Shown here piece by piece: positions 23,080-60,267 of a stretch of 64,000 bases of DNA; the stretch's first letter is position 1, and every line of letters begins with the position of its first letter. The translations under genes and the position numbers were made by a program. The stretch spans positions 41,559,220-41,623,219 of the forward strand of contig OX387186.1 in the NCBI GenBank assembly GCA_947561395.2, read 5' to 3'. Below the pieces are notes generated by a model. The model saw only the letters and a program-made list of their open reading frames with translations, did not search any database and had not been told where the DNA came from. The DNA comes from Buxus sempervirens. Its lineage: Eukaryota; Streptophyta; Magnoliopsida; Buxales; Buxaceae.

Positions 23080-23081
23080 AC

Positions 23082-23099
23082 TGGCGACTCTGCTGGGGA
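23082..23099 (+). other. Primer binding site of element 1 (tRNA-Arg type)
   Basis: TGGCGACTCTGCTGGGGA lies 2 bp after the LTR end. It matches my memory of the complement of a plant tRNA-Arg 3' end (TGGCGACTCCGCTGGGGA) except for one base. A tRNA-Arg primer is reported for Ogre elements. Confidence 0.9.
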
Positions 23100-25050: not shown

Positions 25051-25051
25051 C

Positions 25052-25985
25052 CCTTGATTGGTCTCCTTTTTACCAATCAAGTCAAAAAAAGTGGGACCTC
25101 TGGAAGCCCTAGAATATTCCATGAACCCTTGATTGGTCTCCTTTTTACCAATCAAGTCAAAATTGGGACCTCTGGAAGCCCTAGAATATACCATGAACCC
25201 TTGATTGGTCTCCTTTTTACCAATCAAATCAAATCAAAAATTGGGACCCTTGGAAGCCCTAGAATATTCCAGAAAAAACCCTTGATTGGTCTCCTTTTTA
25301 CCAATCAAGTCAATCAAAAATTGGGACCCTTGGAAGCCCTAGAATATTCCATAAAAAACCCTTGATTGGTCTCCTTTTTACCAATCAAGTCAAAAAAAAT
25401 GGGACCTCTGGAAGCCCTAGAATATTCCATGAACCCTTGATTGGTCTCCTTTTTACCAATCAAATCAAATCAAAAATTGGGACCCTTGGAAGCCCTAGAA
25501 TATTCCATAAAAACCCCTTGATTGGTCTCCTTTTTACCAATCGAGTCAAAAAAAAGTGGGACCTCTGGAAGCCCTAGAATATTCCATGAACCCTTGATTG
25601 GTCTCCTTTTTACCAATCAAATCAAATCAAAAATTGGGACCCTTGGAAGCCCTAGAATATTCCATAAAAAACCCTTGATTGGTCTCCTTTTTACCAATCG
25701 AGTCAAAAAAAGTGGGACCTCTGGAAGCCCTAGAATATTCCATGAACCCTTGATTGGTCTCCTTTTTACCAATCAAATCAAATCAAAAATTGGGACCCTT
25801 GGAAGCCCTAGAATATTCCAAAAAAAAAAAAAAAACCTTGATTGGTCTCCTTTTTACCAATCAAGTCAAATCAAAAATTGGGACCCTTGGAAGCCCTAGA
25901 ATATTCCATGAAAGCCTTGGTTGGTTATTTTTATCAATCAAATAAAAAATTTGTTTGGGACCCTTGGAAGCCCTAGAATATTCCA
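25052..25985 (+). repeat. Tandem array with stem-loop units upstream of gag
   Basis: About twelve copies of a 68-82 bp unit are present. Each contains TTGATTGGTCTCCTTTTTAC, then CAATCAA, in which TTGATTGGT and ACCAATCAA form perfect 9-bp arms, followed by GGAAGCCCTAGAATATTCCA. Two spacer variants (TCAAAAAAAGTGGGACCTC and ATCAAAAATTGGGACCC) alternate in places, giving a partly dimeric order. The frames are open only because of the repetition. Confidence 0.9.
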
Positions 25986-26197
25986 ACACAAAATCAAAAC
26001 AACAAAAAAAATAAAAAACAAGAAAAAATCTGGATTGGTGTTCACCTGACCTATTTGTCTACATTTATAGGGGTGTGTTTCAAATTAAATGGAAACTGAC
26101 TTATGTCTTTGTTTTTCTTAATCAGGTACATTTACTTTCAACCCAGGTACACTTATTTGCAGTCATTGCTCCCGTGACCAGATCCAAAGCAAGAGCC

Positions 26198-29100
26198 ATG
26201 AATACTGAAGAGAACCAAGCCCAAGCTACTGTCCCCGCTCAGGACTTTACTCAGCTGCAGGAGCAAGTGGCCGGTCTGGCCAAGATGCTGGGGGACCTAC
26301 TGGCGGCTCAGGCCCAACAGGCCCAGGCCCAAAACCAAGCATCGACTTCCCATCAGGCACCACCACCTCAGGCCTATATTCCGCCTCCGGCTCAGCCCAT
26401 GCCTGAGCCCATTTCTGAACCAGTCCCTGAGCCCATTCTGATCAGGGAAAATACAGCGGAGTCTGAGAAAGAGCTGGAAAAAGAAAAGGCCCGAAATGAG
26501 ATGGAAAAGAAAATGCTGCTCAGGATAGAGAGGATCCAGGCAAAGCTGAAGGAGGTGAAGGGGGGAGGCAGCCATGCAGGCACCACCTTCGAGGACCTGT
26601 GCATGTACCCGGACGTCTGTCTACCGGCTAAGTTCAGGTGCCCAGACTTCGATAAATTTGATGGCACGGGCTGCCCATTGAGCCATTTGAAATTATACTG
26701 CGGGGCCCTATGCCAATTTGGCCGGGATGATGGCATACTGATCCAGCTCTTCCAGAGGAGTCTGACCGGGTCAGCCCTTCGGTGGTTCGCTACAGTGGAC
26801 CATGGAAGGATCAGGAGGTGGAAGGACCTAGCCGACGCTTTCCTGGACCAATACAAGTGCAACTCTGAGATCGTGCCGGACCGGTACGACATGATGAGGA
26901 TGACCAAGGGGAAAGATGAACCAGTATGGCAGTACGCCAAGAGATGGAGAGAGGCCGCCTCCCAGGTCAGGCCACCTATGCAAGAGCCGGAGATGATCTC
27001 CACATTTATGGGCACACTGGGGCAGCCTTTTTACAACCATCTGGTGGGTCAGATCACCACCAACTTTGCAGCCCTAGTGCAGGTGGCGGACCGGATCGAG
27101 GAAGGAGTCAGGTCAGGAAGGCTGATAGACTACTCTACTCTGACTGGGCAGTCTGATTCCTCGGCCTCCATGGCCCAAAAGAAGGGAACTGGGTTCAAGA
27201 AGACAGGGGCCCGAAAAGAAGGGGAGGTGAACTTGGTCCAGGCTCCTCCAGCCAAGAAGCCACTGCACGTCAACATCTCTGCACCCCAACAGGCCGAGCA
27301 GGCCCAGCAGTCTTATCAGAGCCCGCAGAATGTCAATTTCACTCCCTCCGTACCAGCAAACCCAAGGAGGACCTTTACCAGGGAGGAAAGAGAGGCCTGG
27401 TTAGCCAACAGAAAGAACCGGGTTTTGACCCCTCTACCCATATCTCTTTCCCAACTATTGCCGACCCTGCTAAAGGGCGAATACTTGACTCTGAAAGAGC
27501 CCAACCCGAATGCCACCAGGGGGAGAAATTTTGACACATTGGTCACCTGTGATTTCCACATGGGTGCACCGGGGCATGCTACTGATAACTGCTGGGTGCT
27601 GAAGCATGCGGTCCAGGACCTGTTGGACCAGAAGGCCTTGGTGTTCAACACTGCTGCACCGGCCCCGTCCGGGAATGATATTGGGCAGAACCCTCTGCCG
27701 TACCACAATGGGGCAGGCCCATCCAACTCCATCACTGCCATATCCACCACCAGAAGGGCCTTTGACCCATCACAGCTCATAGCTCCCGTGGGGACCACGG
27801 TCCAGGTCCGATTTTTCCCAGAAGAGGAAGAAGAGGAGATCAACATGGTCTCCCAAAAAAATAATCTTGCTACTGAGGACATAAGCTCCTCCTTAAACCA
27901 GGTCTCTTCTCTGATGGCCCAGATAAATACTGCAAGGCCCCCATTGGTCTTCAATTGCAGTCCACCCACTTATTCTCCATCCAAGCCGTCTAAGGCTCCC
28001 CTGGTCATCAATCTTGACCCCACCACTGCTTCCATCACTTCTTCTGTCCCTACCAAATCCAAACTTCAACCCTTGGTTGTAAATGTGCAGCCAGCCCATA
28101 CAATCCCTAAACCGGCCCATACATCCCGGTCCAAACTCCAGCCACTAGTGGTTGACATCCCTAAATTAGCCTATTCAGAGGCCGCTGTACCATGGAATTA
28201 CAGCGAGGGAATCACGGCTACGGTTCCAGCGGTTAGAAACCTGAACCAGGAGGAGGTGAACCTCATGACGAGGTCGGGGAGATGTGCAGGGGGTGAAGAG
28301 AAAGAAAAAGAGACAGAAGTGGAGAAAGAAAAAAAAGAAAATGAAGAAAAAAGAAAACAGAAGGGAAAAAATAAAGTGGGAGAAGACACCCCCCAGGGTG
28401 CAGAAAATGAGGCAGCCGACCTCATAAAAATCATAAAAAAAAGTGAATTCAATCTTGTGGATCAGCTAAACAAGGTCCCGGCCCAGATTTCAATACTGGG
28501 CCTTTTGCTGAATTCTGAAAAGCATAGGGATGCATTGTTAAGGGTGCTACAGAGTGCACACGTATCCCAGACAATTGATCCAGACCAGCTTGGCAAAATG
28601 GTTGGTCAAATCTTGTCACATAATGTGATAAGTTTCTCAGAGGGTGAGATCAGCCCAGGTGGGTGTTATCATGTTGACCCTTTGCACATCACTGTGCTTT
28701 GTAAGGGCTGCATGGTTGCACGGGTTTTAATTGACAACGGGTCAGCGTTAAACGTTTGCCCGTTAATCACTTTTACCAAGCTGGGTCTGGACCAGTCAAG
28801 GATCAAACAAAATGGGCGGATAGTAAGGGCTTTTGATAGCTCCAAGACCCACTCCCTAGGGGAGATTGAACTGCCGGTCACAATTGGGCCAAATATCTTT
28901 AACATCACATTTGAAGTGATGGATATACCCGCAGCATTCAATCTGCTCCTAGGAAGGCCGTGGATACATTCGGCTAGGGCAATACCATCCACGCTCCACC
29001 AGAGGGTGAAATATATAAGAGGGCAAAGGGTGATAACAGTCCTAGCCGAAAACTTGGTGCCGCCCATCGTGTCACCTGATGTACCCTTGATCAATGTGGA

Positions 29101-29902
29101 CCTAACTGTCGACAAGATTGCATTCCACTCGTTTCAATTTGAGGCGGTAAATTACATACCTGGGGGGTGTGATAAAAAGAAGGAAAAGGGGACCACTGCA
29201 GAAAAGATGGTCAAGAAAGTGATGGAGAAATACCACTTTCACCCAGGGAAAGGCCTGGGGATCAATCTGCAGGGGATGGTGGAGCCAATCACGGCTAAGA
29301 AACTGATCCCCAAGGTAGGGTTGGGCTTCAAGCCCAGAGGTTGGAGAAGAATGAAATATGAAGAAGGGGAGAGCAGAAGCAAAGGAAAACTCCCGCATCT
29401 GAGGGTGAACTTTCCAAAACCCTCCTACATAATCCAAATTTCTCCTCCCATAGACCAGTCCAAACCCCCATACCGAAATGTCAACCCATTTCAGAAGCCT
29501 GTTGTCTCGGCCTTACAACCCTATAACCCTTCTCCAATACGGGGAGCCGTGGATGGGCCTGGACCACAGCCCGAGCAGCAGGTGGACTTTTCTGAAGATG
29601 TTGGTGCATTCTTCGCCATGACTGAAGGCGAAAAGACAGGGGCAGACATGGAACTGCCATTTATTGACTGGGCCGCAGTGAAGATTCCAGACAAGGTCAT
29701 TTCTGGATTGGGCCCCGTAGCAGAAAAGGGCAGTACCCACCCGGTGATGATGGCATCGGATTCTGGGTTTGAAGAGCAGGCTTTCCCTATTTCCCCTGCT
29801 CCCCAAAATTTTGTAATGAACAATTGGGAGGAAACTCCCCTTACCTTTGAAGCAGCGTTAGTTCGGCAAACTGACGCGGCTTCCAAAAAAAAACTCCAAT
29901 AG
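26198..29902 (+). CDS. gag-pro: Gag-protease polyprotein of element 1
   Basis: Structural protein and aspartic protease of the retrotransposon particle. The frame is open from about 26075. The first ATG is at 26198. The usual Tat start context (xAPVTRSK) lies 11 codons upstream at 26165, but with ATT instead of ATG, so initiation there is doubtful. Counting residues from 26075: the Gag core is about 189-350 (FDKFDGTGCPLSHL, WRWFATV-like region). The zinc knuckle is 492-506, CDFHMGAPGHATDNC (CX2HX5HX4C, the Tat/Ogre variant). A Lys/Glu-rich linker comes before the protease, whose active site DNGSA is at 887 with LLGRPWIH later. A G-patch-like segment (HPGKGLGINLQG) lies near 1050. The ORF ends at TAG 29900-29902, just after nine A residues. 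The RT frame follows in the -1 frame. Confidence 0.93.
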   Translation: MNTEENQAQATVPAQDFTQLQEQVAGLAKMLGDLLAAQAQQAQAQNQASTSHQAPPPQAYIPPPAQPMPEPISEPVPEPILIRENTAESEKELEKEKARNEMEKKMLLRIERIQAKLKEVKGGGSHAGTTFEDLCMYPDVCLPAKFRCPDFDKFDGTGCPLSHLKLYCGALCQFGRDDGILIQLFQRSLTGSALRWFATVDHGRIRRWKDLADAFLDQYKCNSEIVPDRYDMMRMTKGKDEPVWQYAKRWREAASQVRPPMQEPEMISTFMGTLGQPFYNHLVGQITTNFAALVQVADRIEEGVRSGRLIDYSTLTGQSDSSASMAQKKGTGFKKTGARKEGEVNLVQAPPAKKPLHVNISAPQQAEQAQQSYQSPQNVNFTPSVPANPRRTFTREEREAWLANRKNRVLTPLPISLSQLLPTLLKGEYLTLKEPNPNATRGRNFDTLVTCDFHMGAPGHATDNCWVLKHAVQDLLDQKALVFNTAAPAPSGNDIGQNPLPYHNGAGPSNSITAISTTRRAFDPSQLIAPVGTTVQVRFFPEEEEEEINMVSQKNNLATEDISSSLNQVSSLMAQINTARPPLVFNCSPPTYSPSKPSKAPLVINLDPTTASITSSVPTKSKLQPLVVNVQPAHTIPKPAHTSRSKLQPLVVDIPKLAYSEAAVPWNYSEGITATVPAVRNLNQEEVNLMTRSGRCAGGEEKEKETEVEKEKKENEEKRKQKGKNKVGEDTPQGAENEAADLIKIIKKSEFNLVDQLNKVPAQISILGLLLNSEKHRDALLRVLQSAHVSQTIDPDQLGKMVGQILSHNVISFSEGEISPGGCYHVDPLHITVLCKGCMVARVLIDNGSALNVCPLITFTKLGLDQSRIKQNGRIVRAFDSSKTHSLGEIELPVTIGPNIFNITFEVMDIPAAFNLLLGRPWIHSARAIPSTLHQRVKYIRGQRVITVLAENLVPPIVSPDVPLINVDLTVDKIAFHSFQFEAVNYIPGGCDKKKEKGTTAEKMVKKVMEKYHFHPGKGLGINLQGMVEPITAKKLIPKVGLGFKPRGWRRMKYEEGESRSKGKLPHLRVNFPKPSYIIQISPPIDQSKPPYRNVNPFQKPVVSALQPYNPSPIRGAVDGPGPQPEQQVDFSEDVGAFFAMTEGEKTGADMELPFIDWAAVKIPDKVISGLGPVAEKGSTHPVMMASDSGFEEQAFPISPAPQNFVMNNWEETPLTFEAALVRQTDAASKKKLQ

Positions 29903-31761
29903 TGGAATGCCATTTCCCTGAAGGTTCTAATGGGCCTTCGTCTTCAGGGGAATTATGTTTAGAAGGCCCACAAAAAAACCAAAAAGATTTTTCTATTTTT
30001 TCTAGGAAATTTAATTTTTTCAAAAAAGTCCAAACCACTTATGAACCGTATAATCAAACCGAATTGGACCAGGTTAAATATGACTTCGACTTCGAGCTCG
30101 ACTTTGACCTTATGGGGATCGAAGAAGAGATCGAGGTCGAAGGAGAAGACGTTCCAAAAGAAATTGAATACCAATTGGAACGTCATGAAAAGGGGGTCCA
30201 ACCTAATATTGAAGAGACCATATCCATAAACCTTGGGACTGAAGATGACCCAAAAATTGTGAAAATCGAGTCATGCTTGTCTGATGTGCAGAAAAATGAA
30301 ATGTCACAATTCTTGGCAGATTACAAGGATGTGTTTGCTTGGTCGTATCGGGACATGCCGGGGTTGGACACTGACATGGTGGTGCACAAGTTGCCAATTT
30401 TACCAGGGGTTAAGCCGATTAAGCAGAAGCTGAGAAGATTGAAACCTGAGTGGACTCTGAAGGTCAAGGACGAAGTGGTCAAACAGTTCCAAGCTGGATT
30501 TTTGGCAGTCTCTACGTACCCTGAATGGCTCGCAAACATAGTGCCGGTACCAAAGAAGGACGGGAAAGTCCGAATGTGCGTGGATTATAAAGACTTAAAC
30601 AGGGCAAGCCCAAAGGACGATTTTCCGCTTCCACACATCGACATTCTGGTCGATAATACTGCGGTACACAGCCTGTTTTCTTTCATGGATGGTTTCTCGG
30701 GATATAATCAGATCAAGATGGCTAAGGAGGATCAAGAAAAAACAGCATTTATCACACCTTGGGGCACATTCCACTATACAGTCATGCCGTTTGGGCTTAA
30801 AAACGCTGGGGCAACATACCAGCGGGCCATGACTGCACTATTTCATGACATGATCCACAAGGAGATGGAGGTCTATGTGGACGATATGATTGCCAAATCA
30901 TGCAAAGAGGAGGACCACTTGATCAATCTGAAGAAAGTGTTTGATCGGCTTAGGAAGTACAGTCTACGGCTTAACCCGGCTAAGTGCGTCTTTGGGGCTA
31001 CGTCAGGGAAGTTACTGGGGTTTATAGTGAGCCGAAGAGGAATTGAAATTGACCCGGCTAAAGCCAAGGCCATAATTCAAATGCAAGCACCTAGAACCGA
31101 GAAGGAGGTCAGGGGCTTTCTTGGAAGGATTCAATACATAAGCCGGTTCATAGCACAGCTCACTGCTATCTGTGAACCAATTTTCAAACTTCTAAGGAAG
31201 GATAACCCGACGGTCTGGAATGAGGACTGCCAGCAGGCATTTGACACAATAAAGAGGTATTTGCTGAACCCACCTGTGCTAGTGCCACCAACTCCAGGAA
31301 GACCGCTGATCCTGTACTTGTCAGTGTTGGAAACGTCGATGGGATGTGTCTTGGGGCAGCATGATGAGACTGGTAGAAAAGAAAGGGCAATTTACTATCT
31401 GAGTAAAAAATTCACAGAATATGAAGCCAAATATTCACCATTGGAAAAGACTTGCTGTGCTCTAGTGTGGGCCACCCAGAGGCTAAGGCATTATTTCCTG
31501 AGTCACTCCACACTGTTGATATCCCGGATGGACCCGCTGAAATATTTATTTGAGAAACCGGCACTGACTGGCAGAACGGCTAAGTGGCAACTACTACTGT
31601 CTGAGTTTGACCTCACATACATCATCCAGAAGGCAATCAAGGGTCAAGCCATAGCTGATCACCTGGCTGCACATCCTCTGCCAGAATATCAACCCTTGAA
31701 GACCAACTTCCCAGATGAGGCAATTCTGTACACTGAAGAGGAGGACAGTGAAAGTTCTTAG
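29902..31761 (+). CDS. pol: Reverse transcriptase and first RNase H of element 1
   Basis: Copies genomic RNA into cDNA and degrades the RNA strand. There is no ATG at its beginning. The frame is -1 relative to gag-pro and probably continues from it at the A9 run (29886-29894). Residues counted from 29902: the RT palm includes VPVPKKDGKVRMCVDYKDLN (about 212-231), FMDGFSGYNQI, and the catalytic YVDDM at 325-329. The connection and RNase H follow (about 470-595). In this RNase H the usual first Asp position reads LYLSVLETS, so it may be catalytically weak, which fits the presence of a second RNase H downstream. The frame ends at TAG 31759-31761, in phase with the next ORF. In relatives this position is normally a Trp just before FFDGA, so TAG probably replaced TGG. 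Confidence 0.92.
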   Translation: MECHFPEGSNGPSSSGELCLEGPQKNQKDFSIFSRKFNFFKKVQTTYEPYNQTELDQVKYDFDFELDFDLMGIEEEIEVEGEDVPKEIEYQLERHEKGVQPNIEETISINLGTEDDPKIVKIESCLSDVQKNEMSQFLADYKDVFAWSYRDMPGLDTDMVVHKLPILPGVKPIKQKLRRLKPEWTLKVKDEVVKQFQAGFLAVSTYPEWLANIVPVPKKDGKVRMCVDYKDLNRASPKDDFPLPHIDILVDNTAVHSLFSFMDGFSGYNQIKMAKEDQEKTAFITPWGTFHYTVMPFGLKNAGATYQRAMTALFHDMIHKEMEVYVDDMIAKSCKEEDHLINLKKVFDRLRKYSLRLNPAKCVFGATSGKLLGFIVSRRGIEIDPAKAKAIIQMQAPRTEKEVRGFLGRIQYISRFIAQLTAICEPIFKLLRKDNPTVWNEDCQQAFDTIKRYLLNPPVLVPPTPGRPLILYLSVLETSMGCVLGQHDETGRKERAIYYLSKKFTEYEAKYSPLEKTCCALVWATQRLRHYFLSHSTLLISRMDPLKYLFEKPALTGRTAKWQLLLSEFDLTYIIQKAIKGQAIADHLAAHPLPEYQPLKTNFPDEAILYTEEEDSESS

Positions 31762-31764
31762 CAG

Positions 31765-33489
31765 ATGTTCTTCGATGGGGCCGCCAACATGAATGGGAAC
31801 GGAATAGGGGCAGTCTTGGTTAAACCAGATGGTTCACATATCCCAATTGCAGTAAAGCTGAGATTCCAGTGCACCAATAACATAGCAGAATATGAAGCAT
31901 GCATAATCGGATTGCAAGCAGCCATGGATCATGGAGTAGAGGGACTTGACGTATACGGGGATTCGAGTCTTATCATCTTCCAAACAACTGGTGAGTGGAA
32001 AACCAAGGATCACAAATTGATCCCCTATCACCAGTATTTGGAAGAAATAAGCACAAATTTCACTCGAATTTCCTTCAACTATATGCCAAGGGCCAAGAAT
32101 CAGTTTGCGGATGCTCTAGCAACCTTGGCTTCAATGGTCAGCATACCAGAAGGGGTAGACATCAGACCACTGGAAATTGAGGTCCGAGATGAACCAGCTT
32201 ACTGTCTCGTTCTAGAGGGAGCACCAGAAGAAGAAGCACCATGGTTTCAGGATATCAAGAACTTCTTGAATAATCGGAGTTTGCCAGAAAATGCCACTGC
32301 TACTGAGAAGAGAACAATACAGAGATTGGCTGGTCAATTTCTGCTAAGTGGTGGACATGTGTACAAGAGGTCACATAACGACATTCTGCTAAGATGTGTT
32401 GCCAAGGCTGAATCGGAAAGGCTGATTGAGACTGTACATGGAGGAGTCTGTGGGCCCCATATGAGTGGGCACATGCTGGCTAAGAAGATCCTGAGGCTGG
32501 GATACTACTGGACGACCATGGAGCATGATTGCTGTATACATGTCAGGAGGTGCCACCAATGTCAGATATATGCAGATAATAAGCATGCACCCCCAGGCGA
32601 GCTGCACAACATGACATCACCCTGGCCCTTCTCTATGTGGGGCATAGATGTCATCGGCATGATCTCCCCTAAGGCATCGAACGGGCACAGATTCATCTTG
32701 GTGGCGATTGATTACTTCACTAAATGGGTAGAAGCAGCATCATATGCGAACATCACAAGCAACCATGTTATTAAATTCTTGAAGCACAATATCATTTGTC
32801 GCTATGGACTGCCAAGTGCCATAGTATCAGACAATGCTTCAAATATTAAGAACAAGGACATGAAGAAAATGTGTGAGCAGTTTCAGATCACCCACCATAA
32901 GTCAGCTCCGTACAGGCCAAAGATGAATGGGGCAGTGGAAGCAGCAAACAAGAACATAAAGAAAATCATCCAGAAGATGGTAGTGAGCTACAAAGATTGG
33001 CATGAAATGCTGCCACTTGCTCTGCATGCATACAGAACCTCGATCCGAACTTCAACTGGGGCAACCCCGTACTCCCTAGTCTATGGGATGGAAGCAGTCT
33101 TGCCCGTGGAAGTAGAGATCCCCTCACTCCGAGTGCTCATGGAAGCAGAACTAGAAGAAGCCGAATGGGTCCAGTCAAGACATGATCAACTTAACCTGAT
33201 AGAAGAAAAACGGTTGAAAGCACTTTGCCATGGACAGTTGTACCAGAAGAGAATGGCCCGGGCCTACAATAAGAAAGTAAGGCCCAGAACTTTCCAAGAA
33301 GGAAACTTAGTGCTAAAGAAAATTCTACCATTTCTGGAAGATCCTCGTGGTAAGTTCAAGCCCAATTGGGAAGGCCCATATGTTGTCAAGAAAGTCTTGT
33401 CAGGGGGTGCACTCATCCTAGCAGAAATGGATGGGTCAGATTTTCCTGAGCCCATTAACTCTGATGCAGTAAAAAGGTATTTTCCTTGA
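31765..33489 (+). CDS. pol: Archaeal-type RNase H and integrase of element 1
   Basis: C-terminal half of Pol, in phase with the RT ORF and separated only by the TAG at 31759. Residues 1-125 are the additional aRNase H that defines the Tat lineage, with catalytic acids in FFDGA (D4), AEYEA, YGDSS and QFADAL. The integrase then follows: an HHCC domain with VHGGVCGPHMSGH and CHQCQ, and a catalytic core with D295 (GIDVIG), D356 (SDNAS) and E392 (NGAVEAANK). The last two are 36 residues apart, i.e. DD35E. The C-terminal part contains GNLVLKK and the GPYVVKKV segment. All catalytic residues are present, so apart from the upstream stop the protein looks functional. Confidence 0.93.
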   Translation: MFFDGAANMNGNGIGAVLVKPDGSHIPIAVKLRFQCTNNIAEYEACIIGLQAAMDHGVEGLDVYGDSSLIIFQTTGEWKTKDHKLIPYHQYLEEISTNFTRISFNYMPRAKNQFADALATLASMVSIPEGVDIRPLEIEVRDEPAYCLVLEGAPEEEAPWFQDIKNFLNNRSLPENATATEKRTIQRLAGQFLLSGGHVYKRSHNDILLRCVAKAESERLIETVHGGVCGPHMSGHMLAKKILRLGYYWTTMEHDCCIHVRRCHQCQIYADNKHAPPGELHNMTSPWPFSMWGIDVIGMISPKASNGHRFILVAIDYFTKWVEAASYANITSNHVIKFLKHNIICRYGLPSAIVSDNASNIKNKDMKKMCEQFQITHHKSAPYRPKMNGAVEAANKNIKKIIQKMVVSYKDWHEMLPLALHAYRTSIRTSTGATPYSLVYGMEAVLPVEVEIPSLRVLMEAELEEAEWVQSRHDQLNLIEEKRLKALCHGQLYQKRMARAYNKKVRPRTFQEGNLVLKKILPFLEDPRGKFKPNWEGPYVVKKVLSGGALILAEMDGSDFPEPINSDAVKRYFP

Positions 33490-34431
33490 GTGAATATTTC
33501 TAGGAAATGATCCGAGGCCATTTTTCTTTATTTCCTTCAAAAATTTTAATCCCTAGTCTAGCCAAGTTGAGCCGGTTCGTTTCTTTCATAAACCCAAACC
33601 GGATTTACAGTCTTAAATTGGGGCAAAACAAATTGGGGCAAAGTAAGGAAAGAAAAAGAAAAAGAGAGAAAAAGCAATGGAAATGGCAAATGAAAGCCAA
33701 GTGTGAAAAAAAAAATGCAAAAAATGCAATTTGGGGAAAAATGGTTAAATTTATCATGACTGTAAATCCGGTTGACCTATTTCCACACTTGAAAATTTTG
33801 GGCCTTTAATACCCTTTCGTTCATAAACTGAGCCTAGCCTTTATTTCGTCCTATTTTTAAGCCCTCGGTGATCTTAGCTTGTTCATTCAAATATCAGAGT
33901 AAGATGGGTGATGACGGAATTCAGAAGCCGGCCCTAGTGAAAACCGTAACTGGCGCTAGGGGCAATATTGGCAAAAAGAAAAAAAAATCAGAAAAATGAA
34001 AGAAAATCAGAGGTTGAGTTGATCATGGGGATCTGTGCTTCAAGCAAAGTTGGCATGAGCAGAATGGGGTAGTTTTGGCATTTTGGGGATGACTCTAAAG
34101 ATCCTAAGATGGACGGTTCTGATCCCTCAGTATTTTTTGGACTACCCTTTTCATTATTTAACCTGGTTTTTAATTCCTCTAATTATAGGTGATTAAGTGC
34201 ATGGACCAAATTTCAAAAAATAAAAAAATAAAAAAAATATATAAAAAGGAAAAATTATACTTTGGCCAGTGATGATAAATCAAATACTTTTCATAAAACC
34301 TTTGTTTTTACAAGCATCTGAGCATTCTGAGGCCAATAATATAAAAACTTTATTTGGAATTAAATCCTTTGTATTTCCACTATTGGAGTTCAATTTTGTA
34401 CAAAGGTATGAAAAATGTGCAGGAAATAAAG
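33490..34431 (+). other. 3' untranslated region of element 1 before the antisense genes
   Basis: No gene is seen. The first 120 bp (GGAAATGATCCGAGGCCATT ... TTGGGGCAAA) are alignable with element 2 at about 58776-58905, where they follow gag directly. A segment with TTTATTTCGTCCTA near 33841 recurs in element 2 at about 59535 and 59725. This homology marks the position of the pol deletion in element 2. Confidence 0.65.
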
Positions 34432-36131
34432 CTAATCTCCTAGCCGCTCCTCAAGCTCCCGAATCCGAGCTGCCTGAGCTGCAATGACTCCTGAAGCCCC
34501 CTCTGCAGCGGGATCACTCAAGAAGGAAATGACCTCATCTGAAAGGGCCTGCTTGATCCGCATACTCCTAAGGCTGGCCAAAGTATCCTGGTACTTCTGC
34601 CGGATCATACAGACCTCGAAGCGACGGGCCTGCCTCTGCTCCTCCAGCTTCTCTTCCACAGCAATACGGCGTGAGATCTGCTCCTCAAGCTGCCTCTCCA
34701 AATAAGCGCCCTGTATCCTGAGCTCCTGGGCCTCCCGTACCCATATCTGCTGAAGCCGCTTATGAGAAGCCCGCTCAGACTCTAGAATGTCCTCATAGGT
34801 GGGAGCCAAGACTACAGGAGGATCTTCGGGTACTGGGGCCTGAGTCTGTATCTGTTCCTTGATCCAGAAGAGATAATCCTTCACATGGGCTTTTGAGAAG
34901 ACTGGACCATGCATAAAGCGGACATAGGACCATTCCTTCATCAACCAGGCATTCAGCTTCATAGAAAGGGGCCCAAGACGATCCTCATATCCACATGGGA
35001 TGATAATCCCCTGGGTCGCACGGAACTGACGAAGGACCCGCAGAGGAAGATAAAGCACTGCATGCCTCAGGCCAGCCAGAATCAGAAAGTTGCGGTCTCG
35101 GAAGCTAATCATTGTCTCCGCATTAGGCTGATAAGTACCAGGCCATCTGACCTGGTCATCCTGAAGCGAGCCCAAGAAAGTGAACCAGCCCTGTTTGCCC
35201 CCTGGAATATCGGGGCACCCCCTGTTGCTCATCAACAAGGGGACTTTCAGACTCGGGAAGAAGTGTCGATTGATCTCTTCAATCTGACTCAAATGATCAA
35301 GTAGCCAAAGCTGCAAAGGAAGGGAGATATGTCAGCACATTGTATAATAAGAAAAAAAAAAGCAAAAAAGGGCAAAAAGAAAGCCAAAAAGCAAGAAAAA
35401 AGAAAAAAAAAAAAAATTTTTACCTGCAGGATCTGGGCACATGCTAGGAAGCGTTTCGACTTCCTGTTATAGCAGTCGGTCAAGGCCTGATACATCCCTG
35501 CCAAAATCATGGGGGCCAACCGCTCCCGCTCCCTAACCTGGCATATCACTGAAATCAAGGCCAAGTCCACCTCGTCATCCTCCCGTGGGAAAAGTAACTG
35601 GTTGACCACAATCAAAGTCAGGGCATTAAACCGGGCCTCCTTATCTTCTCCCCTCAAAAGCTTCTCAGTCAAGAAAGCCTTAGATAGGGTCAAAAGGGTG
35701 TCAGAATCCCCCAAGTCCTTCTTCCCTATGCCCAAAAAAGTAGAAGCTTCCTTCTTGTAACTGGGCCTAAGAGGTGGATTCACCACCTTCTCATCAAACC
35801 TCAGGCCCAGGATGGTTTCCACCTCCTCAATGGTTGGGGTCATCTCATGGTTCCCGAAACGGAACAAGTTGAGGTCAGGAACCCAATGACCAATCATGGC
35901 CTCTATAATCTCTCACCTAAAGGGAACCTTGGGAATGAGCAGGATGTGGCCTAGATTGGTAGTACCCCATCTCCTCTCCTCATCTAGGGTCATAGAGTTA
36001 ACCCACCTGGTGTAAAAGGAATCCACAGGGTTGTACCTAGTGAGATTTGGGGGTTTTGATCTAAAAGGCTGTTTTGCAGGGGAGACAGTGTGGACAGACA
36101 ATAATGGGGCAGAAAATGATCCGGATTCCAT
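34432..36131 (-). pseudogene. Antisense gene B: PMD/DUF7745-like protein, 2 exons, one in-frame TGA
   Basis: Exon 1 is 36131-35424 and exon 2 is 35310-34432. The 113-bp intron (35311-35423) has donor CTGCAG|GTAAAA, a T-rich tract and acceptor TTTGCAG|CTTTGG, and joins CAQILQ to LWLLDHL in phase 0. The product would have about 527 residues plus one stop. It shows LFRFGNHEMTPTIEEVETIL, KKEASTFLGIGKKDL and KAFLTEKLL, then the segment RWPGTYQ ... LRHAVLYLPLRVLRQF, and a long C-terminal coiled coil (about 34450-34800). I assign it to the plant mobile domain/DUF7745 group from memory of the TPTIEE motif. It is clearly homologous to the ORF at 53949-55381 in element 2. TGA at 35915-35913 (codon 73) replaces a position that is Trp in element 2. 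A downstream ATG at 35897 could allow re-initiation. Confidence 0.75.
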
Positions 36132-36240
36132 TGGATGTGATGGGAGCAAGCTAGAACTCAAGAGGAGGAGGAAAAAGGCGAAAAAGGGGGTTTCTAAACT
36201 CAAAAACTCGTAAAAAATGCTCAAATCCCGAGGCTGGTTG

Positions 36241-36401
36241 CATTTATAGCATCTTTTAATGTATCCGGTAACTCAGACTGGATACAAAAGCTTCATTAAT
36301 ATCCGGACAAGTATACCGGATACAGAGGATTCTATGAATATCCGGTATGACATACCGGATACCAAGACCAATCAAGGTATCCGGTATGTCAGACCGGATA
36401 C
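36241..36401 (-). promoter_or_regulatory. Candidate promoter of antisense gene B: TATA box and CCGGAT cluster
   Basis: On the minus strand GCTATAAATG (36250-36241) lies 110 bp upstream of the gene B start codon. Directly upstream (36261-36401) are four CCGGAT inverted-repeat units of the same type as in the LTR promoter. The order cluster, TATA, start is the same as in the LTRs of elements 1 and 2. Promoter activity is inferred. Confidence 0.6.
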
Positions 36402-36613
36402 AAAGAAAAACAGCAGAAAAATGAGCTAAGGATGAAAAATCCGAATTTTTTACCTGTTTTACCTGCTTACATGCCATAATTGCATAAAATTGAGAGCAAA
36501 AGATGTGCAAGACATGATAGAATGAATAAAAAGTTTTTTTCATATATATCTGGAAGTTTTGTACAGGGATGATGATATAAATACATGAAAATGAAAAAAA
36601 TCCTAATCTACTC

Positions 36614-39294
36614 CTATGCAGGATCATCCCCGCGTCCTCGGCCGCGTCCACCTCTACGGCCTCTCCCCCAAAGTGCTCGGCCTCTAGAGTATGCAAGGAT
36701 CCGCTCGGCTGCATGGCGAGGGTGCCGACCTACCACCTGCTGGAGCTGATACTCCAGGCAATACTCCTCGATGTCTGGGGGTAGAGCAGGAGTGGAATCT
36801 GGGGAGGAGGCCTCTGGCTCAACAGCAACCGGCCCAACTGGGCCCTCATCCAAAGCATCCTCTGCTCCCGCAGCTCCAGAAGGCCCAGCATCAGCAGCAG
36901 AGGGGCCGGGATCAGAAGTAGCTGAGTCCATAGAAAAGAGAAAAATCAGAAGACTCAGATATAAGGAAGAATAAAGGAGGAGAATTAAAAGAAGATCATA
37001 CCAGGAATGTCTGCAGAAGGAGCAGGAGGATCCGGCTCGTCAAGACCAGCCGCTGGGGCACCCTCGGGATCGGCAGCCCGAGCTGGGGATGGGTCAGGAA
37101 TAAGGAAATCATGCTCAAAGAAGGCAGCATCCTGATCCGGGACCGGGCCCTGCACAAATCAAACAAGATTATCAGAACAGCAGAAACAGGAAAATAATGA
37201 AAGAAATGAAAATATGAGAAGGCCAGATACCTGTCTAGACTGGAGCTCAGCCACTAAGGCCTCCAGCTCCCTGATCCGGGCATCCCGCTGGGCCACGACC
37301 GCATCGTGCTCCACGATCATATCATCGATCGCAGCCCGCTGGCTCTCGAACCGGTCCCGAATGGAGTTCAGCTCATGTACCTGCCAACAAGAACAGAAGT
37401 AGGGTCAGAAATGCATAAGGGGAGAAAAGATGAAAATATAAAGAGTAAAAGACTTACCGTGTCCTCATGGATCCGGATATGGATCCCGCCAATCTCTGTC
37501 ACCCCAGCACGAGTGGGTCGATCCATCAAGCATCCAATAGACACCCTCTGGAACCACTCGTCATAATCTCCAGCTACTGTGAGCCCCTCCGCATCCAGGA
37601 AGTGATCGAACTGATCAACATCAAAGCCCGGGAGGAGTGTGTCGGGACCCACAGGAGGAGGAGGGACGGGGATGCGAAGTGCGCTGGTGTGCTGGAAGTA
37701 TAGGCGCTCTCCTAAGTACATCACCCTACCAAGCCTCCCGAGGAAGCACTGGTAGGGCTGACGTCGTCGATCTCTATCGAAGGCATCCTGTACCGCCATC
37801 TCACGAGCCACTCCAACATCCAAGTCATCAAATCGGGACAGGAGGAGCTGCAAAAAAGGGAAATTGTCAGGTACAGTCGAGATACAGGAAAGGAAATAAA
37901 AAAAATAGAGGACCTACATCAGATCGGCGGGCACGGTCTAAGTGCACCCGGGCGGTGCGGGGCTGACTCCTATCAGCATCCCGGACCTGGGCCGACCATC
38001 GCAGGGCCACAGGGAAATCCGCAACCTCAGGAACCGGGGAGGGGCGGAAGAAGGTCATATAGGTGTACATGAACACCTGGCAAAAGAAAAATCAGTCAAG
38101 AAAAGATAAAGCCTAAGGAATTAAACTAGACAGATGAATGCAATACCTTTAGAATCTGCCAGAAGAACCGGCTGCTGACTCCATCACCCCTCGGGGATGC
38201 CAGGCCTCGAACCGCTCGGCACAACCCGGCTAGGATGGTCCCATAGATGAGCCGACCCCATGCTAGCTGGCGGGTCTGATGGAAATCTCTCAAGGCATCC
38301 AAAAAGAGAGGACTAACGCCAGTCGTATCCTCCGGAAAGAAGCAGCTCCCCAACATCAGCAGGAATACATGTCGGAAGATCGGTGCAAAGGCTGCATCCT
38401 CCACAGAGACGGTCTCATGCCTCCTCTCAAAATGACGAGCCAGACTCTCCCGCAGCCAGCTAATGGAGAGCCGGCCGCTCCGCCCATCCCAAGCAGTAGG
38501 TGGCAGGGCCTGATATCCCAAGAGAAGTCCCATATCCTCCACAGAAGGCCGCTCCAAGACAATGGTCCGCCATGTCAGAGGAATGCCCGTAATCATCACA
38601 AAATCGGAGGGGCGGATCCCCAGCTCCACGTCCGGCAGATGGAATGACTGAGTCTCTGGGAAATATCTCTCCATCATGGCAAAAATAAGCGGACGGTCGG
38701 CTCTGAATGATGGAATACTGAGGAAGTGATCCAGGTGGCACCTCCCAAACTCCCGCCTGAGTGCCGGAGAAAGTGACTGTGCCAACTCAATGAATCTCCC
38801 CCAGCTGCCTCGCAAGTGGGAAGAATGGTATGGAAGCGGCACATCGGCCCTGATGCACATGGAGGGGTGGCTATCCAAGCCATGGAGGAGCTCTGTATCA
38901 TGCACAGAGGCCCTCAACTCCTCAGGAACTCCTGCAAGAGCTACAGCAACCCCCTCCGGAGCCGTATCTCTGGCTCTGCCTCGGCCTCTGCCACAGCCTC
39001 TCTCGCCCTCAGGGGCCTGATCCTGAACCCGGCCTCTGCCTCGGCCTCGACCACGAGCGGGTGCAACCACGGGCTAAATTTCAAAGGAACAACGTGAAGA
39101 TTTGTGTAGAAAGAAGAATAGAAGAAAGAAAAGAGAGAAAGTGCTTGAAAGTCTACCTCAGCAGAGCTCTCTCGAGAGTCGCCTAATGGCTCGGACAGGG
39201 TGGCACTAGAACTAGTCTCAACCCGAGCTCGAGAAGAAGAGGGCCGGTCGGCCGGGTCAACCTCCTCACGAACACGAGAACGACTCCTAGCCAT
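36614..39294 (-). CDS. Antisense gene A: plant mobile domain (PMD) protein, 7 exons, intact
   Basis: Exons (minus strand): 39294-39157, 39073-38147, 38076-37918, 37847-37458, 37380-37231, 37149-37002 and 36921-36614. The introns are 83, 70, 70, 77, 81 and 80 bp, all GT-AG with T-rich 3' ends. Phases are 0,0,0,0,0,1. The joined frame is 740 codons including TAG, without interruption. Domains: a Ser/Arg-rich N-terminus, RG-repeats early in exon 2, and then a PMD core (WGRFIELAQSLSPALRREFG, RADRPLIFAMMERYFPETQ, SFHLPDVELGIRPSDFVMIT). Further PMD-like sequence spans exons 3-4, exon 5 is coiled-coil-like (REQ-rich), exons 6-7 are Pro/Ala/Asp-rich, and the C-terminus is RG-rich (GRGRRGGRGRGRG). PMD proteins include the Arabidopsis MAIN/MAIL group, which act in the nucleus in transposon silencing and genome stability. 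The role here is unknown. Splice sites were read by eye. Confidence 0.82.
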
Positions 39295-40283
39295 CTACAC
39301 AGGGAAGTGTTTTATGAATTTCAAAGTTGGCTTTGCTTGCAGTTCACATCCAATTTTACATGATTATTTTTCAAAATTATCGTGAATTATGAATTTTACT
39401 GGGAAGTGAGAAATACTTCTGTTGCTAATCCTGAAACATTTCCTAAAAGATTCCTACAGTACTTAACATTTCCTGTATATTGTGGTTCCAGGATATGAGA
39501 AGAGGGAAGGCTCAGGTATCAAAGGCAAGCAGAATTACAGAAATCCAGATTAGACAGTCAATTAAGAAAAATTCACAGCAAAATGGAAAGGGAGCAGAAG
39601 CTTTTTAACCCCGGCAATACTGAAGATAGAAAACATGCAAGTGGCAGATTACCACCAGCATGCAAATCAGGATTCAAGTCAAACTTTTGTAGCATGGTAT
39701 AACCATTGGCAGGCAATCTAAAGACAGCAAGAGTTGGCATACAAAGCAAATTGTAGAGAAAAAAAGCACAGCATGGCATTTACAATAAGCAATTCAGTCT
39801 GGCATCAAGCCCAGGCTACTTGGTCACTATCAATTTGGGTGTACTTCAAAGAAAATTTTTTTTAGACCAAGAGGCCTGCAGCCGATGAGATGATCAAAGA
39901 TGGTCCCCTCAAGCAAACAAAAATAACCAATTGTCAGCATATGGTCAGGCCTAATGTCAATCAAGGCACCAAAGCATCACAAACATGGCAATTCGGCATA
40001 GTATATGGCAAAAATGCTGGAAATCATGCAAGATTTGAGGAGCAAAAATTCATCAAACCATACTCGAACTCAACTGTCTGAAGTTGGGAACAAAAGGGCT
40101 ATTCAATCTGAGCATGGCCATTCGACAGGAAAATTTTGGCATACAAGTGTTTACAAGAAAGAAATTTTCGGCAGAAAAGTTAGAAAATAAGTGGCCATTC
40201 GGTGCCTGAGCTAAACAGGAGCATGATTCGATTAAAAATGCCAAGCTACCACTGTTTGATTAATAAGGAAGTAAAAGAATAAC
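39295..40283 (-). other. Probable 5'-UTR intron of antisense gene A
   Basis: On the minus strand CCCAG|GTTATT at about 40284 is a reasonable donor, and CCTGTGTAG at 39295 directly precedes the ATG of gene A. The roughly 990-bp interval contains no recognisable gene. A long first intron in the 5' UTR is common in plant genes. Other splice choices are possible. Confidence 0.4.
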
Positions 40284-40619
40284 CTGGGATTGCTGGAACT
40301 TAGATGGAACCACCGAAAATGGGAAGAAATCGAGCTAGGGCTCGACTGCAGCTGTCAATGGCCGATCACTGAAGTCGCCGGAGTTGCAGGTCGTCGCCGG
40401 CAGCAATAGGAGTCGTCGGAGTTGCTGGAGATCGCCGGAGAAGCAGGACGAATCGTCGGAGTCGAGGACGAAGGTCTATGGCCGGTCTGAGTAATCGGAG
40501 CAAGAAGAAAAGAAATGAAAAGTCGCGGTCGCGCGCGACTTAAGTAAACTTGGAGGATCCGGATACTCAGGCCGGATACCCACAGACCCTTGATTATCCG
40601 GATATACATACCGGATACC
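40284..40619 (-). promoter_or_regulatory. Candidate promoter and first exon of antisense gene A
   Basis: Two CCGGAT inverted-repeat units lie at 40557-40619. On the minus strand they are followed by AAGTTTACTTAAGTCG, which aligns with AAGTTTGCTTATAAATAG after the cluster in the element 2 LTR, though the TATA sequence is degraded here. The interval 40284-40530 is GC-rich with repeated CTCCGGCGA-like motifs, as expected for a leader exon. Weak evidence, mainly positional. Confidence 0.4.
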
Positions 40620-40800
40620 AAAGAAAAAAGAAAAAAAACAGAAAAAAATAGAGAAAAAACAGAAAAGAAAAGAAAAAAAAAAAGAAGAAAAGGAAATGAA
40701 AAGAAAAAAAAAAGAGAAAAAAAAGAAAAAGAAAAAAAAAGAGAAAAGAAAAAAGAAAGAAAAAAAACAAGAAAAGAAAAAAGAAGGAAAAGGAAAGAGC
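40620..40800 (+). repeat. Purine-only low-complexity tract
   Basis: About 180 bp consist almost only of A and G (AAAGAAAAAAAAAGAGAAAA type). It gives long open frames on both strands, which I regard as artefacts. It lies between the antisense gene promoter region and the 3' LTR, and could act as an additional polypurine primer site or as a separating element. Confidence 0.85.
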
Positions 40801-40829
40801 AAAATTGTGCTACAATTCTTACTATTTTC

Positions 40830-41035
40830 TCAAAAATCCTATTCTTGTCTCAAAATCCACCTCACAGCCACGAGAGCTCTGTGGAATTTGGGACAACTTT
40901 GGGAAATGTGACTGGTCAAAAGGATGATATCCACTCAATTTTCAACTTGGTTTGATAAAAAATCAGTTTTTCAAAAAATCCTATTTTTGGGCTTAAAATC
41001 CACTTCACAGCCACAAAGGGCTCAGTGGAATTTAA
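40830..41035 (+). repeat. Direct repeat AAAATCCACYTCACAGCCAC upstream of the polypurine tract
   Basis: Two copies of about 55 bp lie at 40838-40893 and 40979-41035, both containing AAAATCCAC, TCACAGCCAC and GTGGAATTT. They are about 140 bp apart. No function is known. Confidence 0.65.
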
Positions 41036-41197
41036 GAACTCTTGGAGAGATGCCCCCCTTAAAGTGAGGGCTTTTTGGCAAATCTCCACTCAAAAATGGT
41101 TTTCTACAGAAATTGAATTAAACCGAGCAAATCATGCTCAAGGGAATGCAATTTGGGCTTGTCTACTCTTTGCAGCTCACTGCTTCGCAGCTCCCAC

Positions 41198-41210
41198 AAA
41201 GAGGGGCAGT
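41198..41210 (+). other. Polypurine tract of element 1
   Basis: AAAGAGGGGCAGT is directly before the 3' LTR. Element 2 has AAAGAGGGGCAGC at the same position (62574-62586). The shared primer sequence means the same replication machinery could serve both. Confidence 0.9.
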
Positions 41211-43489
41211 TGTAGACACCCCAAATTGCACAAACAATCATAAAAAATCATTATCTCCTGGAAAGCCAGCACAGAATTTGAAGAAAATAGACTTTTACCT
41301 GTATCCGGATACTCAATCCGGATACAAGTACTCCTTCCCGTATCCGGATACTCATACCTAATACATGTGAGCCTTAGCGTATCCGGTAACATGTACCGGA
41401 TACCTTAAAGCCCTTTGTTATCCGGTCTGATATACCGGATACCTTGAGTTTGCTCAAAATTAGGGTTTTCCGAGAGCTTTTCACTTTTACCATCATGTCC
41501 CTCATTAAATGAGGAGAAATCGCGGAAATAACCTTAGGGTTTAGGTTGGAGGGGTTCTAGACATTAATTTGTGTCTACCAATGACCTTAGCCCTTGCCTA
41601 TAAATAGGAGCCTCCTCCTTGAGCAAATGGCACACAACTCTTGTTTTGAATTCTCGCAAAGAAGAACTCCAAGAGAAGAAGAAAACCGCTGTGGAATCGC
41701 CTCCAGAACTCAGGTAAGCCTCAACTTTTCTTTTTATTTTCCGTCTTTACATTCCTAGATCTTGATCTCTTCTTCTACCTTTCTGTAGTGTAAAGCCTTG
41801 TTTGTATGTGTGGAAATCCTTCCCCGGCTCAAAGTATCTCAAGACTCCCCTAGCCGTAAAACGTGAAGGCGGATCTAGGAGAAACGAGACTGGGGATTGA
41901 CCCTAGTGCTAGAACCTATGTAGCATAAGGCCTTTTTGATTGATTGTAAACCGTTCCATATTCAAAGTACCCTTGATTATCTTAAAGAGAACAGAGGGAA
42001 ACGATAATGGAACGGAACCCTAGGCTATGCTAGAACCTACTTTATTGAATCTATATGCATATGTATGGATCTTGCTTGGGTTTTCACTTTGCACACATAT
42101 TACACTATTTTGGCGGGATAGGCTCACATTTGGGGTTTATTGCATTTATTGTGATAAATCTCAAATAAATGGCCTCAATCAATTCTGGAGTGTTTTTTAA
42201 TGTTTTTCAAAGGTTTTGGATTCATATCACACGAATCTCACACACTTTGTCAATTTTCGGATTTGGTTTTCTTCAAAAGTGGCTTAGCTTGACAGCACCT
42301 ATACCCTTACTTTGGACATCCGTAACTTCATCATCCGGATGAATTTTGGGGCGATTCCAAAACCATGGGAAAGGTGAGGCTGTCTAGTTTATGTCCACCA
42401 AATTTCATGAATTTCTATCTAGCAGATTTTTGACACCTCTCTGTCGAAGTTAAGTGGACAGTTCAGGTTCAAGTACAGAACTTGTCACTTCGACGGACCG
42501 CCATGTGTTCGTTTTAAGTCCGATTCGAGTGATTTTTATTTCTGAGTACTTCTTTTTGAGTCTATTTTCAAATCCAGTTGGTTTCATAATTTTTGGATTC
42601 CATTTGAATTATTGGTAGCCGATTTACTCAGGACTGCTCATTTGCACTTTTCTGGGTAAATCTGTGATCTTCGGGGCCTGTTCGGGAGGCCACCCAAGGC
42701 ACATCCGACGGGATTTTTGTATGAGGCTAGTTTCTATTGAAATATGGCCATACAGACTTCAATCACACCAAATTTCGTGGACTTTTATGTAGTGGATGTT
42801 TCTAGACAATTTTCCAAAGTTGCCCACTTACCACTTTTAAAAATCCCCAGCAGCAACTTCAAAGGAGCATAACTCCTAGATTTTTCATCGGAATGAAGTG
42901 AAATTTTGCATGAGACTCTTATTTATCCTAATATTTCAAATGGATTTGGTTTGGTTCAATTCAGAATTGGATTTGAATGATTTCAAGGCAAATGGCATAC
43001 TTTTTACCGAATTTTCCGGATTTGATTTAACTTGGTTTTGAGCAACTTGGGCTTTGATTTCCATCTTTTGAGATATTCCAGAAATGATATTGACATGAGA
43101 GAGGATCTAGAATCCATTTAGATCTTCATGTGAATATATCATACACTTGTTCCTTTTTCAAGGCTTTTTTTCATGATTTTTAGCAAGCTTCTTATTTTCT
43201 TTTTAGCATGAACATACACTTGGCAACCACTTCGTGTGGATGAATGGGGGTGCCTAACACCTTCCCCCGTTCATAATCTAATCCCCTTACCCATCTCTGG
43301 ATTTGATTTTGAAGTAGGGTTATTTTTATCCTAGAATTTGTCTTTTGGCTATTTTTGCTATTTTTGATCTCTTTTGGTGTCCATTCTCACCCCAAAATCA
43401 TGAATGGTGGCGACTCTCCCAATTTTTGCGTTGAGCCCGTGTGTTGACGGAGGGACGATCACTCCGGTGATTTTTTCCAATGTCTCACA
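41211..43489 (+). repeat. 3' LTR of element 1
   Basis: 2279 bp, the same length as the 5' LTR, with three visible substitutions. It is followed by the GGCGC duplication at 43490-43494. Confidence 0.97.
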
Positions 43490-49335: not shown

Positions 49336-49720
49336 TGTAAGCACCTCATTTTTGCGCTCCCGAAAAGCCAGAAATGCAAAACCCGGCTAAAAAGTCAAAC
49401 CCTGAGGGGTGGAAAGTTGACCTTTTAATCAGATAAAATTTGGCCACCTTGCTTTATCTCAATGGATAGAGAATCTCGACACGAGTCCAACGCAACTGGG
49501 TTTGCGGGAATCGGAGTCCGGATGAGGGTTCTGCGGGCGGTCAAACTTGAGGATGAGCCGAGAGTTGACTTTTCCTTGAATTCCGTGCCAAGTGCTTAAC
49601 CCTATGTCATTGAATAGAGGGCTCCGATACGAGTTCAACGCAATTGAGTTTGCTCAAATGGGAGATCAGATGAAAGAGATATGAGCTGTCAAAGTTTCCG
49701 GGCAGCAAAAGCCGGAAACT

Positions 49721-49750
49721 GCACACGTGGCGCAGGAACTGCACACGTGG
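49721..49750 (+). promoter_or_regulatory. Two G-box/ABRE-like motifs 20 bp apart
   Basis: GCACACGTGG occurs twice (49721-49730 and 49741-49750), within the duplicated AACTGCACACGTGG. The first continues as ACGTGGC, the core of abscisic-acid response elements, bound by bZIP or bHLH factors. The same pair is in the 3' LTR (62972-63001). A role in stress-linked transcription is inferred. Confidence 0.45.
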
Positions 49751-49907
49751 AAGCCAACGCAGCAAAATATCTCGGGGGCTAAATCTTAAATATCCAAATA
49801 TCTCAAGGACTAAACAAAAATTCGTGCGGGGCAATCCGTAGATATCCAAAAGTGTCAAATCGGTCGAATCGGTCAAGTCGAAGGGCAAATCCGTAATTTT
49901 CCGATTT

Positions 49908-50173
49908 GTATCCGGTCACATATACCGGATACACTAGCTTCCCTTCATGACCGGACGTGAAGACCGGATACATCAAGATATTCGTGCGAGATCCGCGCCG
50001 ATCGCCCGACAAATCCGCAGCGGCATTTAATTTTCGAATGATTGTGTTTGTATCCGGACTTCAAGACCGGATACAAAGGAGCATTACTGTATCCGGACTT
50101 CAAGTCCGGATACAAAGGAGCCTTAGTGTATCCGGACTTCAAGTCCGGATACATTAAGTTTGCTTATAAATAG
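49908..50173 (+). promoter_or_regulatory. LTR promoter of element 2: CCGGAT cluster and TATA box
   Basis: Inverted repeats of the type GTATCCGG(N)CCGGATAC are present, the last three with ACTTCAAG(T/A) centres. TTTGCTTATAAATAGC (TATA at 50166-50173) follows 11 bp after the last arm. The copy in the 3' LTR is at 63159-63424. Confidence 0.75.
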
Positions 50174-52403: not shown

Positions 52404-52421
52404 TGGCGACTCTGCTGGGGA
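52404..52421 (+). other. Primer binding site of element 2 (tRNA-Arg type)
   Basis: TGGCGACTCTGCTGGGGA is identical to the element 1 PBS and lies 3 bp after the LTR end. Confidence 0.9.
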
Positions 52422-55725: not shown

Positions 55726-55729
55726 TAGG

Positions 55730-60250: not shown

Positions 60251-60267
60251 AAATTTGAGACAGGCAG

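Follow-up and report, generated by a model that had tools for sequence, protein, structure and literature searches.

Antisense accessory genes of an Ogre/Tat-type retrotransposon in Buxus sempervirens keep introns where a related sense gene has none

In the window, by which we mean the whole stretch of 64,000 nucleotides of Buxus sempervirens DNA that was analysed, an Ogre/Tat-type LTR retrotransposon (element 1) carries two plant mobile domain (PMD) genes, A and B, that read against its gag and pol and are split by predicted introns, and a related element (element 2) carries a sense homologue of gene B, ORF1, that is uninterrupted where gene B has its intron. We consider it likely that the antisense genes shelter their introns and that the sense ORF1 lost its own via spliced genomic RNA.

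Element 1 (20801..43489, plus strand) is complete and 22.7 kb long, with LTRs of 2279 and 2280 bp (20801-23079 and 41210-43489) that differ by 3 mismatches and 1 gap, a flanking 5-bp direct repeat, GGCGC (20796-20800 and 43490-43494; ends and flanks judged by eye), and a PBS after the 5' LTR at 23082. Its gag-pro ORF (26075..29902, plus strand) matches the Pfam families Retrotrans_gag (42.4 bits) and G-patch (26.7 bits), and pol occupies two ORFs (29902..33489, plus strand) that encode RT, RNase H, a second RNase H and integrase (RVT_1, RT_RNaseH, RVT_3 and rve). According to the accessible text of PMC6317226, the Ogre/Retand clade of the Tat lineage is recognised by a second RNase H between RNase H and integrase; in element 1, RT_RNaseH ends the RT ORF, and RVT_3 covers residues 3-121 of the integrase ORF, ahead of rve. 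Ogre elements are described as large, with LTRs of 1.9-6.5 kb (PMC6431247, accessible part), and element 1 agrees with Ogre in its size (22.7 kb, with 2.28-kb LTRs) and in its PMD extra ORFs, genes A and B. The mark of Retand, antisense TRP28 (PF04195), was not found in genes A and B in a Pfam scan at E up to 1. The gag-pro and RT ORFs lie in different frames, and their junction at 29902 is a candidate for the Ogre gag-pol intron; a tandem repeat array is present in the 5' region (25045-25985).

Gene B, a DUF7745/PMD gene antisense in element 1 (34432..36131, minus strand), comprises exon 1 (36131-35424) and exon 2 (35310-34432), separated by a predicted intron of 113 bp (35311..35423, minus strand; GT-AG, phase 0, 60% T) that shifts the frame and has the edges GTAAAAAT...CTTTGCAG between exonic CAG and CTT. 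The window copy is broken by an in-frame stop in exon 1 (35913-35915). When the exons were joined, the Pfam scores rose from 58.2 to 82.2 bits for DUF7745 (PF24924; gathering cut-off 26) and from 41.7 to 62.9 bits for PMD (PF10536; gathering cut-off 34.9); spliced gene B clears both cut-offs.

ORF1 (53949..55381, plus strand) is an intronless DUF7745/PMD gene that lies in sense between the PBS and gag of element 2, and its N-terminal piece likewise scores above the gathering cut-offs (PMD, 56.1 bits; DUF7745, 62.2 bits). The window copy carries two lesions, a frame change near 54773 and a stop at 54926-54928; we rejected the frame break as an intron because the residues on either side of it, by eye, match gene B continuously with no surplus. 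A sequence-only reading of this DNA had proposed that the two genes are homologous and that the gene B intron falls exactly between codons that are adjacent in ORF1, and both proposals were borne out. Exon 1 of gene B is 38% identical to ORF1 over 159 aa (BLASTP, E = 1e-35), and the stretch RWxGTY..VLRQF is 50% identical over 46 aa (E = 3e-13). Local alignment scores exceeded those of 500 shuffles by 58 SD for exon 1, 22 SD for the middle of exon 2 and 17 SD for the C-terminus; the start of exon 2 (~45 residues, LWLLDHL...) gave a weak signal against ORF1 on its own (1.6 SD), and the register there rests on Pfam and MAFFT. The codons that flank the gene B intron align without a gap to the adjacent ORF1 codons CAC/ATT (54624..54629, plus strand; boundary 54626/54627).

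Element 2 (49336..64000, plus strand) is related to element 1, with which it shares the PBS (52404); its 5' LTR starts at 49336, and its 3' LTR starts at 62587 and runs past the end of the window. Its gag ORF (56943..58361, plus strand) is 38% identical to that of element 1, an identity too low for a recent inversion. With gag present and no match to RT or integrase found by tblastn (58361-62587 lies behind gag), element 2 is probably non-autonomous and mobilised by a relative. Tandem repeat arrays fill parts of the gap between ORF1 and gag (55726-56787) and of the region behind gag (60264-61484). Elsewhere in the window, reversed pieces related to element 2 (its 5' region and its LTR) occur at 1360-4470 (minus strand) and 10688-12986, with a PBS-like site with 1 mismatch at 2373.

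Gene A, which the sequence-only reading had not listed, is a second antisense PMD gene of element 1 (36614..39294, minus strand), with an unbroken reading frame of 739 aa in 7 predicted exons (39294-39157, 39073-38147, 38076-37918, 37847-37458, 37380-37231, 37149-37002 and 36921-36614, minus strand) and six predicted GT-AG introns of 70-83 bp. Its PMD scores 57.3 bits when spliced, compared to 45.1 bits for the exon 2 ORF (gathering cut-off 34.9), and its protein is RG-rich near both ends. Across 9 copies, introns 2-5 had GT-AG ends in 35/35 cases, with lengths of 70-82 bp; exon pairs were counted where both ends were found, and the other pairs were dropped.

Both strands of the window were scanned for spliced ORFs under rules (GTA donor, YAG acceptor, 60-160 bp, at least 42% T, pyrimidine-rich end) that were set after the introns of genes A and B had been seen and that favour T-rich introns, so that a sense intron of another kind could escape. 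Ten ORFs scored at least 450; two were intron-bearing, both antisense (1 and 6 introns), and the five plus-strand ORFs among the ten were all intronless. The scan recovered gene A with the identical six introns and gene B with the identical one, the latter started at 35897, after the stop. The score of neither gene was matched in 1000 local shuffles (0/1000), and in 60 shuffles of the window (120 strands) the best ORF of any kind reached 698 and the best intron-bearing ORF among the 300 top-scoring ends per shuffled strand reached 347, compared to 1769 for gene A and 1277 for gene B.

Further copies were drawn from the same 676.5-Mb genome, in which the window occupies 41559220-41623219 of contig C8. 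A search with gene B exon 2 yielded 133 scored places from 5846 candidates, and 23 of them, including the window copy, were examined (8 supplied by the search and 15 picked from many contigs, with several of the lowest-scoring included; the other 110 of the 133 lie outside the count). All 23 were opposite to the integrase. Both exons were found in 18 of the 23, each with the junctions CTGCAG/GTAAAA and TTTRCAG/CTTTGG (slash, splice boundary). Five places (L004, L011, L012, L017 and L021) had the acceptor and a long T-rich tract with exon 1 undetected and were left out of the intron count; they may represent a truncated form of gene B. One sub-group (L008, L016, L019 and L020) has the intron ends GTAAAAAG..TTCTTTGCAG, with a length of 58-67 bp in three members and 112 bp in L020. 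A second search, with PF24924, gave 118 scored places from 5751 candidates, and we examined the best 30 together with L054 and L055, which belong to a set of 59 places with matches that stop at profile positions 200-213. The 86 of 118 places outside this count comprise 29 of the 59 with a match past position 250 and 57 of the 59 that end at 200-213 (bins tallied by eye); these latter matches stop about where the intron would lie, which is a hint only and entered no count. Six of the 32 PF24924 places (L027, L035, L042, L046, L054 and L055) are remotely related to gene B and contain introns of 81-176 bp; four are antisense by the integrase, and L027 and L035 by the flank alone. L042 is decayed and has lost the intron AG; the divergent L046 differs in intron length and flanking bases, yet has GTAAG..TGTAG at the same codon. 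Taken together, all 24 antisense copies with both exons that were examined, the window copy included, contain the intron (24/24; 58-176 bp), with GT in 24/24, AG in 23/24 and a length that is not a multiple of 3 in 18/24; the window copy appears twice in the antisense listing (L001 and WIN), so that its 25 rows correspond to 24 copies.

A further 25 of the 32 PF24924 places are loci of the ORF1 type, and in 25/25 the gap at the intron site is 0. They were called sense by a PBS upstream on the same strand (20 loci) or by the flank that follows the PBS (5 loci); no gag was found near them within the stretches examined. Including ORF1 of the window, 26/26 sense copies are without the intron, with the loss exact at the splice sites. 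The remaining place, L025, holds an open ORF1-like gene of 457 aa that is 54% identical to ORF1 and unbroken at the site; because its flanks match nothing and it has no PBS, it was kept out of the orientation count, and it may belong to another element family or be a host gene. The contrast that the sequence-only reading had predicted, intron kept in antisense and absent in sense, thus held throughout the copies examined, and the case that would contradict it, a sense copy with the intron, was looked for among the 26 oriented sense copies and did not occur. All copies are best protein matches, which favours intact genes, and some are not independent, since L037 and L038 have the same coordinates and identities throughout and L005 and L006 nearly so. 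A Fisher value of 4e-15 was set aside because it assumes independent copies and includes the window copy two times over. The exact junction of spliced gene B had 0 matches in the 676.5 Mb at up to 3 mismatches, in a search that may skip very common words and had no positive control; the spliced junction would be expected within 1 mismatch from 18/24 of the gene B copies examined.

All three genes, A, B and ORF1, have dN/dS ratios well below 1. The medians were 0.07-0.13 for gene B, with dS saturated (1.3-1.9) in divergent pairs, and, for ORF1, 0.10-0.12 in the PMD part and 0.24-0.28 at the C-terminus; because copies of these two genes were chosen on protein score, their dN is biased downwards. 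In the same loci, copies of gene A and of the integrase were not chosen in this way. The medians for gene A were 0.06 across 54 divergent pairs and 0.22 in the single close pair at exon 2, and 0.08-0.13 at exon 4; the integrase, for comparison, had 0.04-0.07. Stop-free stretches amounted to 18/24 for gene B exon 1, 22/30 for gene B exon 2, 21/27 for ORF1 and 9/11 for gene A exon 2. For the genes of element 1, the window copy was entered twice in both the dN/dS and the stop tallies.

Intron 2 of gene A (38077..38146, minus strand; 70 bp, phase 0), the intron of gene B and the corresponding site in ORF1 all map to positions 180/181 of the PMD profile when fragments are ended at known residues; for gene A, the alignment extends to this position only with 12 residues from the start of exon 3 included, which raises the score from 46.4 to 49.8 bits, and the placement assumes that these 12 contain no indel. 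The alignment of genes A and B is weak on its own (hhalign probability 1%), and hhalign, at this low probability, and MAFFT place the two introns in the same register. By chance, site and phase would coincide with a probability of roughly 2 in 828, given that two introns of gene A fall within the aligned part and that there are 276 positions × 3 phases. That gene A shares the site and phase of this intron points to loss in the ORF1 lineage rather than to gain, and the 180/181 intron is thus, judging by these sequences, probably ancestral.

Among 53 related database proteins, three of them named as poplar proteins, 40 are unbroken at the intron site, 2 are gapped there (P0041 and P0050, perhaps through a gene-model effect or a deletion) and 11 do not cover it. 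Three proteins that start right after the junction (P0049, P0051 and P0052) looked like second exons and were rejected as such: an unbroken protein shares 97-99% identity with P0049 and P0052 and 76% with P0051, so that the three carry no information on the intron. Gene B exon 2 had 0 matches among 5.8 billion proteins, and no relatives were found in viral contigs or in genome contigs; against solved structures the best match was that of ORF1 (E = 0.57), the others being weak matches to the C-terminal coiled-coil part of a profile, and the AlphaFold model of P0021 has a mean pLDDT of 57. Phylogenetic trees contain three clans (gene B; ORF1 with L025; the database proteins) whose root is not resolved, and the position of gene A has a support of 0/47. 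Because the copies fall in few clans and the root is not resolved, the loss amounts to one or two events and not 26, and the copy counts are a strong description and a weak phylogenetic test.

The unbroken database relatives indicate that intronless DUF7745 genes are widespread, as would be expected if gene B (and gene A) had been captured from an intron-bearing host PMD gene and ORF1, separately, from a retrocopy or an intronless paralogue, in which case the intron state would be the donor's and orientation irrelevant. The identity of only 38% between ORF1 and gene B, and likewise between the gags of their elements, also fits such captures. Nevertheless, we regard them as unlikely, because the antisense position of all six gene A introns and the one gene B intron, and the lack of introns in five plus-strand ORFs, would then agree by chance. 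The further suggestion of the sequence-only reading, that the module was moved and inverted between the 3' and 5' regions, may hold, but separate captures or an ancient inversion fit equally. Gain of the intron within the antisense genes, with ORF1 as the original state, is quite improbable: if only DUF7745 is considered, a single gain in the gene B clan is as parsimonious as a single loss, but gene A is a different PMD gene with an intron at the same position and phase. That the 113-bp stretch is a T-rich insertion or slippage tract in a decayed gene, and no intron, is scarcely credible, since, even though the tract varies in length among copies and five copies have a long T-rich tract and no exon 1, the splice ends are kept despite that variation, dN/dS of both exons is well below 1, and the divergent L046 keeps its splice motifs at the same codon.

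Under our preferred explanation, in which antisense genes shelter introns and sense genes are exposed, genes A and B are Tat/Ogre accessory genes that run opposite to gag-pol and contain ordinary spliceosomal introns, as their structure, conserved splice ends and low dN/dS show at the sequence level, and they would be transcribed and spliced by the host. Given what is known of splicing and of the LTR life cycle, the introns of genes A and B should be present in the genomic RNA in inverted form (CT...AC), unrecognised by the spliceosome, and would thus survive reverse transcription intact. The intron at 180/181 appears to be older than the split between genes A and B, as supported by the shared site and phase. 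In the ORF1 lineage, which lies in sense between PBS and gag, the intron was lost exactly, most likely by reverse transcription of spliced genomic RNA: a sense intron would face splicing in every cycle, and ORF1 has the exact loss expected. This part of the sequence-only reading is upheld insofar as the pattern and the exactness of the loss fit it, and is weakened by the fact that only one or two loss events are involved; loss through spliced genomic RNA is still the best account of the missing intron, although the intron may already have been absent when the ORF1 lineage entered the element. With inverted introns spared and sense introns exposed, orientation relative to the genomic RNA would largely decide whether accessory genes retain introns; since the sense intron in Ogre gag-pol is saved by partial splicing, the orientation rule is a bias and not a law. 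We offer more tentatively, at somewhat short of even confidence, the generalisation that LTR retrotransposons can be long-term carriers of complete, host-like multi-intron genes if these are antisense to the genomic RNA, that orientation alone sets the fate of the introns, so that split antisense and exactly processed sense forms of one gene share a genome, and that the antisense placement of Tat extra ORFs may be selected partly for preserving introns needed for their own expression.

The literature searched, as far as its text was accessible, held no account of introns in antisense extra ORFs or of sheltered multi-intron antisense genes; a key paper outside that search, Steinbauerova 2011, which reportedly treats the extra ORFs of plant Ty3/gypsy elements, may tell of them. 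The extra ORFs of plant Ty3/gypsy elements occur as eORF-5'F, 5'R, 3'F and 3'R, with PMD in 57% of Ogre elements (Neumann 2019, PMC6317226, accessible text), so that the same lineage, the same PMD and both positions and orientations are already known. That text mentions introns twice, once for Ogre gag-pol and once in a reference title, and its eORFs require at least 250 codons, so that genes split into short exons would be missed. The gag-pol intron of Ogre is likewise a spliceosomal intron in a Tat element, but it lies in sense, is spliced in a subset of transcripts and is kept by partial splicing (PMC6317226, same text), whereas the introns of genes A and B are on the other strand. Antisense ORFs of Retand encode TRP28 rather than PMD, with no intron mentioned in the accessible part of the source (Vicient 2025, PMC11963269). 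Grande gene23, from a related element, is likewise an antisense accessory gene expressed on its own, with its own promoter and a nuclear protein, again with no intron mentioned in the accessible part (PMC7264820). In intron-based retrotransposition reporters, intron loss likewise reports passage through RNA, but there the intron is sense to the element and is lost, whereas genes A and B lie antisense together with their introns, which are kept (PMC12786077). This source, a 2025 review, describes plant LTR elements, in its accessible part, as generally intronless, with Ogre and EVADE as notable exceptions. PMD proteins of elements may counter silencing by host PMD proteins, according to the accessible part of PMC8616336. 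Antisense extra ORFs and PMD in Ogre are thus already known, and the apparent new part, of which we found no account, is the sheltered multi-intron antisense genes.

A replicator that passes through an RNA stage would be expected to lose its introns. By coding on the opposite strand, this element family apparently retains seven, and a processed sister form within the same genome serves as a natural control. Such split antisense genes can escape annotation that relies on uninterrupted ORFs, for which the cited surveys demand 250 codons or 600 bp. The pair of antisense and sense forms offers a genome-wide test of retroprocessing. The finding also bears on a possible shared intron-bearing ancestor of the PMD proteins of elements and those of the host, among them the silencing proteins MAIN and MAIL1.
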